This document shows, piece after piece, positions 13 through 7,997 of a stretch of 64,000 nucleotides of DNA. Each line of letters opens with the position of its first letter. The first letter of the stretch is position 1. Under the pieces are notes generated by a model, which saw nothing but the letters and a program-made list of their open reading frames with translations, was not told the origin of the DNA and ran no database searches. Made by a program: the position numbers and the translations under genes. Origin of the DNA: Roseiflexus sp. RS-1 (lineage in GTDB: Bacteria; Chloroflexota; Chloroflexia; Chloroflexales; Roseiflexaceae). The stretch covers positions 3,038,001 through 3,102,000 of the forward strand of contig NC_009523.1 in assembly GCF_000016665.1 (NCBI RefSeq), read 5' to 3'.

Positions 13-1497
13 ATGAGCAATGAGCAAAATCAGTTTCTTGAATCAATCCTGCAGGAACTCAAAAACATAACGGCGGAGCTGCAACTTTTGAGAAGTGAGT
101 TGAGATTATCGCCTTATGCAAGATCTGAAAAGACTGTTTTATCCAGTTCACCCAGACAAGTGGTGGACTCCCTCGAAAAGACTGAAGGAGAAAGGTCTGA
201 TGAGACTGTTTTAGCTGGTTCACCCGGACAGGTTGTGGATTCCCCTGACGAGACTGAAGAAGAAAAGGCTTTAGCTGTCTATGATTGGCTCACCGCCAGG
301 GGAATTACTGTCAAAAATTACCGCGAACAAAGTGCGGTGGATGCGGTATTTGATCAGCTAGCGATGTTCCTGGGGGAAAGATTCAAAAATCTGTCACGCA
401 TCTATGAATCCATCAAGCGCAGTCTATCACAGGGTGGCAGTGTTACACTAAATTTATCCTCTAGCAGTCAATCAGAGATAGCAGACTCTACCCAGTTTTG
501 CACAATGCTGTATTCATACGCATTTTTGTCATCCTACCACTATAACAAGCCTACAAAGACGATATACGCAGCTCCACAAAGAGTCGGAAAAGTCATTAAT
601 TTCTTCACTGGAGGATGGTTCGAGCGATATATCTACCTGAAGATCTTCTCCTTTCTCGTCCAAAACAGACTGGAGTTTACCTGCCTGCTCAATCCACAAA
701 TCACCTTCCCAAATGGTGACGATTTTGAGCTTGACGTGCTTTTTTTAGTGAATAACCAGCCTTTATGGCTGGAGTGTAAGACCGGAGAATATCAGACTCA
801 CGTAGCCAAGTACTCAAATGCGAGAAAGGTGTTAGGAATACCAAAGCAAAGAGCAGTTCTTGTTGTTCTAGACATTTCTGAAGATATCAGTGAAAACCTC
901 ACCAGTTTGTACGATATAACCGTAGCGAACGAGAACAACTTCACCAAGGCAGTACTCGCGGCTGTCGGACTTTCGCAAGATCAAGAATCCGTTGCGCCAT
1001 CTTATCCCACCATTACCGCAACTCCAGGCGGTCTTTCTACACTGCTTAACAAAGCCAGTCTGCGTCCTGTTCCAGAATATCGACAGCAAGTAATAAATGA
1101 GTTGATTACACTGGTAAGTTCACTTAATCAACCTGTCTCAATAACTGAAGTAAAATCTGTTCTGGCTGAAAAGGTACAGGCATCAAAAAGTCAATTGCAG
1201 GACATACTCAACGCAATAGTACGAGGTGGATGCTTATTGGACGATAATGGACTGACAGTCTCGTCCTTCACTTCTCCCTTCTCAAAACTGGTATCTCATG
1301 ACCCGGCGGTCATAGAGAGCAAGTGCATCGAAAGCTATGTTCGAGCAGTGTTACTCACTGAACCAACCTACTTCGAGAACCCAAGCAACATCGATGAATT
1401 TCAACGAGTCGTTGGTGGCACGGCGCCAGATATGACGACGATCAGCAAATTGAGAGAACAGCTATTTAGACCAGACGCTGCACCCGATCATAGTTAG
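13..1497 (+). CDS. Card1/DUF1887-like PD-(D/E)XK nuclease without CARF domain
   Basis: This 494-residue protein carries a motif set typical of Card1/Can-type (DUF1887) nucleases: GGWFERY at residues 200-206, an Asp at 241 after FEL, and ECK at 254-256, which together fit the E...D...ExK active site of the PD-(D/E)XK fold. Residues about 85-195 form an unrecognised, mostly helical region in place of the CARF ring-nucleotide sensor of Card1. A ~24-residue duplication (around 41-60 and 65-84, both containing TVL..SP.QVVDS) forms an acidic linker. Residues 355-415 look like a winged helix. The gene is much more AT-rich than its neighbours, suggesting transfer. Nuclease activity and a defence role are inferences. 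Confidence 0.65.
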   Translation: MSNEQNQFLESILQELKNITAELQLLRSELRLSPYARSEKTVLSSSPRQVVDSLEKTEGERSDETVLAGSPGQVVDSPDETEEEKALAVYDWLTARGITVKNYREQSAVDAVFDQLAMFLGERFKNLSRIYESIKRSLSQGGSVTLNLSSSSQSEIADSTQFCTMLYSYAFLSSYHYNKPTKTIYAAPQRVGKVINFFTGGWFERYIYLKIFSFLVQNRLEFTCLLNPQITFPNGDDFELDVLFLVNNQPLWLECKTGEYQTHVAKYSNARKVLGIPKQRAVLVVLDISEDISENLTSLYDITVANENNFTKAVLAAVGLSQDQESVAPSYPTITATPGGLSTLLNKASLRPVPEYRQQVINELITLVSSLNQPVSITEVKSVLAEKVQASKSQLQDILNAIVRGGCLLDDNGLTVSSFTSPFSKLVSHDPAVIESKCIESYVRAVLLTEPTYFENPSNIDEFQRVVGGTAPDMTTISKLREQLFRPDAAPDHS

Positions 1498-5980: not shown

Positions 5981-6224
5981 GCGGGCGTCTCGCCCACATG
6001 CAGCGATGCGACTTGAAGTCAACCCGCTTATCGGAGGAGAGAGACACGGTGCGGGCGTCTCGCCCGCATGCAGCGATGCGACTTGAAGTCAACCCGCTTA
6101 TCGGAGGAGAGAGACACGGTGCGGGCGTCTCGCCCGCATGCAGCGATGCGACTTGAAGTCAACCGGCTTATCGGAGGAGAGAGACACGGTGCGCAGGCGT
6201 CTCGCTCGCATGCAGCGATGCGAC
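5981..6224. repeat. 70-bp tandem repeat, about 3.5 copies
   Basis: GCGGGCGTCT recurs at 5981, 6051 and 6121 and, with two extra bases, near 6191. Each unit contains the hairpin GCGGGCG-TCT-CGCCCGC followed by ATGCAGCGATGCGACTTG and GGAGGAGAGAGACACG. The last copy breaks off and merges into GAGCGAGAGCATCACGCCCTC, related to the dispersed element at 12017 and 57021. Open frames across it are by-products of the repeat. Confidence 0.9.
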
Positions 6225-6332
6225 CCATCACGGGAGCGAGAGCATCACGCCCTCGACCGCCCCGCAAAGCAGGAATTTCTATCGGGATCAAAAGCATGTG
6301 CTTTTGAGCACGTAGAAAGCGACAGAAAACAC

Positions 6333-7997
6333 ATGGCAGAAAAACAGAAAACGGTGGTTGCAGCGGCGCTTGGCGAATGTGTCCATGTCGCAGGCGTGAT
6401 GAACTTTCTGCGTCTGGCAGAGGAAGCTGGCTGGCGCACCGTATTTCTCGGTCCGGCGACGCCGGTCGAGCGGGTTCTCGAAGCGGCGCGACGCGAACAG
6501 GCTGACCTGGTTGGCGTATCGTACCGGTTGACGCCGGAAACCGGCGCGCATCTGCTGGGACGGTTCGCCGAGGCTGCCGATGATCTGCACGCTGCCGGAG
6601 TGCGCTTCGCCTTCGCCGGGACGCCGCCGCTGGCGGAAAAAGCGGCAACGCTTGGGTTTTTCGAGCAGGTGTTCGACGGAAGCGAACCTGCCGATCAGGT
6701 GCTGGCGTATCTCAGGGGGCAAAACCCGGCGACGGCAACCGAAGCGGATTTTCCGCAACGCACGGTTGACCGCATTCGCTGGAAGTCGCCATACCCTCTG
6801 CTGCGGCACCATTTTGGTTTGCCGACCATGCAGGCGACCATCGCAGGGATTGCAAAAATCGCCGAGTCGCGGCGCCTCGATGTCATTTCCCTCGGTACCG
6901 ATCAGGACGCCCAGGAGAATTTCTTCCACCCCGAACGCCAGGACCCGGCGCGCACCGGAGCGGGCGGCGTCCCGGTGCGCAGCGCCGACGATTACCGCGC
7001 CCTCTACGCTGCCAGTCGGCGGGGGAACTACCCCTTGATGAGGACGTATTCCGGCACCGACGACTTCGTTCGCCTGGCGGAATTGTATGTCGAGACGATC
7101 AACATCGCCTGGTGCGCCATCCCGCTCTTCTGGTTCAACCGGATGGATGGACGTGGACCGTGGGATCTGGAGGGATCGATCCGTGAGCATCAGACGATCA
7201 TGCGCTGGTACGGCGAGCGCGATATCCCGGTCGAACTCAACGAACCGCATCACTGGGGCATGCGCGACGCGCCTGATACGGTCTTCGTCGCCAGCGCCTA
7301 CCTCTCGGCGTACAACGCCCGCGCCTTTGGCGTGCGCGATTACATTGCACAGTTGATGTTCAACAGCCCACCCGGTCTTTCCGACGCCATGGACCTGGCA
7401 AAAATGCTGGCGGTGATCGAGATCACCGCGCCGCTGGCGGGACCGGATTTCCGCATCTGGAAGCAGACCCGCACCGGGTTGCTGAGTTACCCGGTCGATC
7501 CGGCAGCATCGCGCGCACACCTCTCGGCGAGTATCTACCTCCAGATGGCGCTTCGTCCGCATATCGTGCATGTTGTGGGTCATACCGAAGCACACCACGC
7601 CGCAACCGCCGATGACGTGATCGAAGCCTGCGATATGGCGCGCCGCGCTATCGAAAATGCGCTACGCGGTCAACCCGATATGACGGCGGATCCGGCGGTG
7701 CGGGCGCGGGCAGCGCAACTGGTCGAAGAGACGCATCTGCTCCTCGATGCGATTGCGCAACTTGCACCGCCGGGCGTCACCGATCCGCTGTCCGATCCCG
7801 CCACCCTGACGAAAGCCGTTGCCGTCGGGTTGCTCGATGCACCCCAGTTGCGCAACAATCCCTTTGCACCCGGTCGCGTCGTTACGCGCTTTATCAACGG
7901 CATGTGCGTGGCGGTCGATGATCAGGGTCGTCCGCTCGACGAAAAGCAACGCATCCGGCAGATTCTGGATCATCATACGACGCTTGTAACGACTTGA
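6333..7997 (+). CDS. B12-binding, glutamate-mutase-like protein
   Basis: This 554-residue protein joins an N-terminal cobalamin-binding-type Rossmann domain (about 1-130) to a long domain resembling the epsilon/large subunit of methylaspartate (glutamate) mutase, with WCAIPLFWFNRMDGRGPWDL at 260-279. In B12 proteins the cobalt-binding signature is DxHxxG; here it reads CVHVAG (16-21), so the ligand His18 and the Gly remain but the Asp is Cys. SxL (S63-L66) is kept. It probably catalyses, or evolved from, a B12-dependent carbon-skeleton rearrangement of an acidic amino acid. The ATG at 6333 follows the repeat region. Opine dehydrogenase follows after 19 bases. Confidence 0.72.
   Translation: MAEKQKTVVAAALGECVHVAGVMNFLRLAEEAGWRTVFLGPATPVERVLEAARREQADLVGVSYRLTPETGAHLLGRFAEAADDLHAAGVRFAFAGTPPLAEKAATLGFFEQVFDGSEPADQVLAYLRGQNPATATEADFPQRTVDRIRWKSPYPLLRHHFGLPTMQATIAGIAKIAESRRLDVISLGTDQDAQENFFHPERQDPARTGAGGVPVRSADDYRALYAASRRGNYPLMRTYSGTDDFVRLAELYVETINIAWCAIPLFWFNRMDGRGPWDLEGSIREHQTIMRWYGERDIPVELNEPHHWGMRDAPDTVFVASAYLSAYNARAFGVRDYIAQLMFNSPPGLSDAMDLAKMLAVIEITAPLAGPDFRIWKQTRTGLLSYPVDPAASRAHLSASIYLQMALRPHIVHVVGHTEAHHAATADDVIEACDMARRAIENALRGQPDMTADPAVRARAAQLVEETHLLLDAIAQLAPPGVTDPLSDPATLTKAVAVGLLDAPQLRNNPFAPGRVVTRFINGMCVAVDDQGRPLDEKQRIRQILDHHTTLVTT

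Follow-up and report, generated by a model that had tools for sequence, protein, structure and literature searches.

A CARF-less Card1-type nuclease with a predicted ROQ-fold C-terminal domain in Roseiflexus sp. RS-1

Gene organization and base composition

The window analyzed here is a stretch of 64,000 nucleotides corresponding to positions 3038001-3102000 of the 5,801,598-bp genome of Roseiflexus sp. RS-1. It opens with the end of a 5' leader (1-12, +), which is followed by an intact open reading frame (13-1497, +) that starts with ATG and specifies a protein of 494 amino acids. This reading frame is confirmed as a genuine gene, and represents the long form of a CARF-less Card1-type nuclease family. 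Its composition is atypical, as an earlier note on this DNA had pointed out: bases 1-1500 exhibit a GC content of 44.7%, the minimum of the window, versus 55-65% in the other 1.5-kb bins.

All parts of the protein are given by their position on the + strand. An amphipathic N-terminal helix (residues 2-32; 16-108), predicted to form a coiled coil, occupies the position of a CARF domain, and is followed by an acidic, disordered linker (120-265; pLDDT <50 at residues 34-76). The duplication ascribed to this linker in the earlier note is also visible at the DNA level, as a tandem repeat of two copies with a period of 72 bp and 79% matches. Residues 82-195 (256-597) constitute a helical/beta segment that is homologous to the Card1/Can2 segment between CARF and nuclease core, based on a PADLOC profile and superposition. 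The PD-(D/E)XK nuclease core (residues 192-320; 586-972) is supported by profiles, alignment and model, and carries G200-x-W202-x-E204, E239-L-D241, E254-C-K256 and K266-Y267. Finally, residues 338-486 (1024-1470) form a predicted ROQ-fold domain, including K381 and K392, as indicated by the structure model and hhalign.

Upstream of the gene lie an amylase gene, an MNT nucleotidyltransferase gene (L003 17371-17673), a short, truncated-looking HEPN-like frame (L003 17661-17902) and a promoter-like site. The MNT gene, located ~340 bp upstream of the nuclease gene, and the HEPN remnant (together genome C1 3037371-3037902) look like a decayed MNT-HEPN module. The sequence before base 1, in which the earlier note had suggested looking for a partner gene, contains this MNT gene and HEPN remnant; relatives of the nuclease gene are without MNT neighbours. 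The promoter-like sequence TTGACA-17-TATAGT occupies the stretch from 65 to 37 bases ahead of the first base of the window (L003 17936-17964; genome C1 3037936-3037964), with TATAGT ending 48 bases before the ATG; since a scan found such sites to be no commoner than in shuffled sequences, its assignment as the nuclease promoter is only suggestive.

Gene turnover at the locus

A sister Roseiflexus genome (G330) presents two versions of this locus, either as separate loci or as different strains combined in a single assembly, neither of which is present in genome G335. On one G330 contig, a GmrSD_N (DUF262) gene (L015 5665-7347) comes after the amylase flank (97%), and then a piece of the MNT gene and the last part of the nuclease gene. 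On another contig, MNT and PspC flanks (97%) surround an AAA_15/AAA_21 protein (L130 1269-2984), an ATPase for which AriA, NsnB and GajA are the top-scoring PADLOC profiles. As the G330 versions are occupied by an AriA/GajA-like ATPase and a GmrSD_N gene, the locus appears to be a turnover site at which defence-type genes are exchanged, which suggests a role in defence. Furthermore, the nuclease remnant at the same site in G330 shows that acquisition of the nuclease gene predates the split of the RS-1 and G330 lineages. The earlier note had read a recent gain from the base composition; the gene is not unique to RS-1, as shown by this remnant and by the presence of the CARF-less family in many phyla (see below).

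A Card1-type nuclease core without a CARF domain

The Pfam profile Card1_endonuc (PF09002) matched residues 196-293 with an E value of 3e-5 and 24 bits, versus a cut-off of 26.4 bits, while a score of 26.6 bits was obtained when neighbouring stretches were scanned together. The top PDB match by sequence was Card1 (6wxw, E 1.2e-4), and the PADLOC profile CARF4--CARF_PDDEXK aligned with residues 83-304 (E 3.3e-14). The GxWxE...ELD...ExK catalytic pattern is kept across an alignment of 53 relatives, with G200, W202, E204, E239, D241, E254, K256, K266 and Y267 being nearly invariant family-wide, and the conserved active site is equivalent to Card1 residues that were mutated in solved structures. 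The Card1/DUF1887-type assignment made earlier from the sequence is thus borne out by profiles, PDB match and conserved catalytic pattern.

A full-length AlphaFold2 model, computed with the 53-sequence alignment as input (mean pLDDT 86.6), was compared with known structures. Residues 85-320 superpose on residues 139-365 of Can2 (7bdv_B; Z 17.2, 204 aa, 3.5 A), as well as on Cdn1 (9u49; Z 17.1) and VC1899 (1xmx; Z 14.9). For this reason residues 85-195, which had been described as unfamiliar, are the known post-CARF segment of these proteins, and the PADLOC match over residues 83-304 likewise places them within the DUF1887/PD-(D/E)XK relation. Residues 122-198 of the model also resemble the S8 fold (Z 7-8).

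Absence of the CARF sensor, as first proposed from the sequence, is upheld by several observations. Pfam returned no CARF match in the 494-aa protein; the model exhibits only the helix at residues 2-32 and disorder at 34-76 before residue 82; and the structural matches start at residue 85, opposite Can2 residue 139 and so past the CARF domain. The PADLOC match, moreover, covers profile positions 133-345 of 364, leaving the CARF part uncovered. We regard it as very likely that the protein is, in its anatomy, a CARF-less Card1-type nuclease.

The protein therefore shares with the CARF4-DUF1887 proteins of type III CRISPR signalling (Card1, Can2, Cdn1 and VC1899) the post-CARF segment, the PD-(D/E)XK core and the catalytic pattern, with superposition across 204-224 aa. 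In contrast to these, it is without CARF, it carries an N-terminal coiled coil and an extra ROQ-fold domain, its gene is unlinked to a cas locus, and it falls in a clade separate from the CARF-bearing proteins sampled. A related nuclease family is represented by the PADLOC entry PD_DExK (PDLC01131, 'same family as the one fused to CARF'), which gave a weak match (E 0.002) and whose entry is without description of a ROQ-bearing form.

The C-terminal domain

The earlier note had placed a winged helix at the C-terminus. A wHTH is indeed present within this region, but it belongs to a larger domain of 140-150 aa whose predicted structure is that of a ROQ fold, i.e., a winged helix with flanking helices comprising ~150 aa, and not to a plain winged helix. 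In the full-length model, residues 338-486 matched the Roquin ROQ domain 3x1o with Z 11.9 over 133 aa at 3.0 A. When the domain was folded separately from six long-form sequences (pLDDT 90.9), Roquin ROQ chains filled ranks 1-6 of a Foldseek search (E 0.014-0.046), while VIA-align returned 13 ROQ entries with Z 11.2-11.8 over 121-126 aa at 2.9-3.6 A, versus Z 5.8 for the best unrelated chain. A search of BFVD folds gave no convincing match. A ROQ-like fold is, judging from these models, probable for the C-terminal domain.

The sequence evidence for a possible common descent with the Roquin ROQ domain is weak. The Pfam ROQ profile did not match the C-terminal region even at E 10, and hhalign, run against a Roquin sequence identical to that of the PDB chains, aligned EKVQASKSQLQDILNAIVRGGCLL with a 24-residue Roquin stretch at a marginal P of 0.026; with ten sequences P was 0.011, and an equally good score was reached by 1 in 300 shuffled Roquin sequences. 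The hhalign register sets QASKS against Roquin QASKT and hence K392 against K239. Other C-terminal Pfam matches, including ANAPC2, MMS22L and SidC_N, were weak and mutually inconsistent, and were rejected as chance.

RNA binding by Roquin requires K220, K239, R260 and Y250, and also K259 (PMC5603727). Across 13 bacterial modules, K381, in the place of K220 by a register taken from structural-alignment end points, is invariant, and K392, in the place of K239 by the hhalign block, is mostly K or R. Since R260 and Y250 are not conserved, and neither is K259, the RNA specificity of these modules must differ from that of Roquin, or RNA binding may be absent. The likeness to the ROQ domains of Roquin-1 and Roquin-2 (RC3H1/RC3H2) concerns the two lysine positions and the fold predicted for almost the entire domain, whereas the present domain is bacterial and fused to a nuclease. 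The RING, HEPN and CCCH zinc finger regions that surround the ROQ domain of Roquin gave no Pfam match in the protein, and the 494-aa chain leaves no space for them. Our searches of open-licence literature brought up ROQ domains only in eukaryotic Roquins.

Two relatives depart from the usual arrangement. One long-form relative (L102 1000-2970; G445) contains two tandem ROQ-like modules (E 6e-23 and 4e-19). Another, cut at the contig start (L140 3-1169; G413), keeps the module and has lost the nuclease catalytic residues (GWFA, GFDM, KTK), and from its sequence its product could possibly be a regulator or binding-only protein. No nuclease-free module was detected among credible matches in 301 Chloroflexota and 339 cyanobacterial-phylum genomes. 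The sampled Bacillota and Bacteroidota, scanned without a positive control, gave no credible ROQ-like module.

Distribution of the CARF-less family

A scan of genome contigs with the alignment as query returned 51 loci, which are spread over many bacterial phyla and include one archaeon, whereas a plain-sequence scan returned no relatives. The family is represented in Chloroflexota, Cyanobacteriota, Bacillota, Bacteroidota, Pseudomonadota, Aquificota and Planctomycetota, and further in Deinococcota, Spirochaetota, Acidobacteriota, Armatimonadota and Methanobacteriota, among others. Its usual member is a short form of ~300-345 aa that ends after the nuclease; the long form with the C-terminal domain was found in Chloroflexota and Cyanobacteriota. 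Short forms possess a similar N-terminal helix ('LERIxxALERI'), while in several long forms from cyanobacteria the N-terminus consists of a hydrophobic hairpin and coiled coil instead.

In a quick tree of 71 rows, one branch (support 84) separates the eight sampled CARF-bearing relatives from all CARF-less proteins, although long branches call for caution. The tree also groups together closely similar short forms whose hosts are Deinococcota, Cyanobacteriota, Spirochaetota and Gammaproteobacteria, and this clustering across phyla suggests horizontal transfer of short forms. No relatives were found in viral contigs, plasmids or phages at the sensitivity used. A neighbour search of 57 loci revealed no recurring partner gene, only lineage-specific synteny. 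Remnants or broken copies occur in G330, G134 and G316, and a fragment is also present in the RS-1 genome itself. The latter (L004; genome C1 5410551-5410880) derives from a second family member with 41% identity to residues 220-329, and apparently adjoins an IS630-like frame.

CRISPR context

In agreement with the earlier note, no CRISPR array was found in the window. The one match returned there by the CRISPR detector is a 70-bp tandem repeat (5981-6224, 3.5 copies, 97% matches) and not an array; this repeat extends into the start of a long open reading frame (6138-7997). No array or cas-like reading frame was recognized among the reading frames in the ~9 kb upstream of the gene or in the flanks of relatives, where no convincing CRISPR array was seen, the detector match at L040 consisting of three short repeats. 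The RS-1 genome does harbour several Cas10-like genes, and a search of it for the Cas10 palm domain, with Cas10 as the only profile, placed the nearest candidate ~176 kb away and below the cut-off. It also encodes a true CARF-Card1 of 397 aa (L070 12556-13749, -; genome C1 about 4988555-4989748), next to which no cas genes were recognized among the neighbouring reading frames. Csx3-AAA is a CRISPR-linked family, and a gene of this family (L018 4939-6150) is convergent with one long-form gene.

Proposed function and alternative explanations

In Cdn1, binding of ligand to the CARF domain makes the nuclease domains rotate and dimerize, thereby completing the active site (PMC12825302). A protein without CARF needs other means of pairing its nuclease domains and of being controlled, and we infer that the coiled coil can supply dimerization of the nuclease, with the ROQ-type domain supplying control. 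Our favoured reading, to which we give slightly less than an even chance, is that of a coiled-coil-dimerized, metal-dependent PD-(D/E)XK nuclease, probably defensive, for which a ROQ-type RNA-binding domain would provide targeting or gating. The N-terminal coiled coil would keep the protein dimeric or oligomeric, taking over from the CARF dimer, which in Card1, Can2 and Cdn1 pairs two nuclease domains upon binding of cyclic oligoadenylate; the ROQ domain would bind a stem-loop or otherwise structured RNA of phage, plasmid or stress origin; and the RNA-bound domain would either direct the nuclease to that RNA or free the nuclease, which would then cleave RNA and/or ssDNA in a metal-dependent manner, most likely in anti-phage or anti-plasmid defence. 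The odds that RNA recognition is coupled to nuclease action are about even, and the case for a defence role is similarly balanced. The suggestion of a defence nuclease with its own trigger thus remains plausible, with the ROQ-type domain as a candidate sensor; defence itself is hinted at by the AriA/GajA-like ATPase that fills the locus slot, the GmrSD_N gene and the close short forms shared across phyla. Against this reading stand the absence of a conserved partner and of phage, plasmid or viral-contig relatives, the marginal sequence similarity to Roquin, the Foldseek E values of 0.01-0.1, the lack of conservation of R260 and Y250, and the cyanobacterial synteny described below.

A comparable logic operates in animal cells, where Regnase-1, a PIN nuclease, acts on stem-loop mRNAs that Roquin also recognizes (PMC5031192), so that one bacterial chain would join the roles of stem-loop reader and nuclease. 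The likeness is an analogy, limited to the proposed coupling of hairpin recognition to a nuclease, as Regnase-1 combines PIN with CCCH, versus PD-(D/E)XK with ROQ here.

Among the alternatives, a housekeeping or regulatory nuclease of RNA decay, whose ROQ-type domain would recognize hairpins of endogenous mRNAs and whose nuclease would shorten the life of these mRNAs with no part in defence, is a minority possibility. The synteny of three cyanobacterial long forms, adjoining RNase II and also RDD genes, fits such a role equally well, and it is further favoured by the vertical synteny of short forms in Caloramator, Roseiflexaceae and Hydrogenothermaceae, and by the solitary nature of the gene with its own promoter-like sequence. 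On the other hand, occurrence in Chloroflexota is very patchy (7/400 genomes), and the remnants and broken copies, the replacement of the nuclease by defence-type genes and the close relatives in different phyla all argue against it.

The wHTH core of the C-terminal domain could instead bind DNA, making the protein a DNA-directed, restriction-like nuclease, and Can2 relatives do cut both DNA and RNA (PMC7969007). This explanation appears unlikely, as MntR-type and cullin winged helices gave Z <6 and covered approximately half of the domain, versus nearly the whole domain and Z near 12 for ROQ. Similarly, the Cas10-like genes, the CARF-Card1 of RS-1 and the convergent Csx3-AAA gene might point to an effector of cyclic oligoadenylates acting in trans, in which the signal of one of the type III systems of the genome is sensed by another protein, with a CARF domain or otherwise, or by the linker segment; given the lack of a CARF domain, the remoteness and sub-threshold score of the nearest Cas10 candidate, and relatives with neither flanking arrays nor a conserved partner, we consider this quite improbable. 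That the nuclease is the toxin of a toxin-antitoxin pair formed with the MNT gene is very improbable in spite of the proximity of that gene, as the usual partner of MNT is HEPN, which lies as a remnant between MNT and nuclease, the nuclease has a promoter-like site of its own, G330 keeps MNT while its nuclease is replaced, and relatives are without MNT neighbours.

Significance

The present analysis defines a widespread CARF-less branch of Card1 nucleases that is mostly missed by current annotation, with NCBIfam returning no meaningful match to the protein and Pfam scoring the family at or below its cut-off. New in the long form is the predicted ROQ-fold C-terminus, the combination of domains being uncommon and testable, and it would offer a ready test of how a Card1-type nuclease may be controlled without cyclic oligoadenylates. 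The most far-reaching proposal, that bacteria carry hairpin-binding domains homologous to those of Roquin on a CARF-less Card1-type nuclease, as a one-protein defence sensing or targeting structured foreign RNA and requiring neither CRISPR nor cyclic nucleotides, is tentative and rather doubtful at present. If true, it would mean that the RNA-reading domain of Roquin has a prokaryotic counterpart in immunity, the bacterial ROQ-fold module on a nuclease being the counterpart to a central immune RNA reader of animals.
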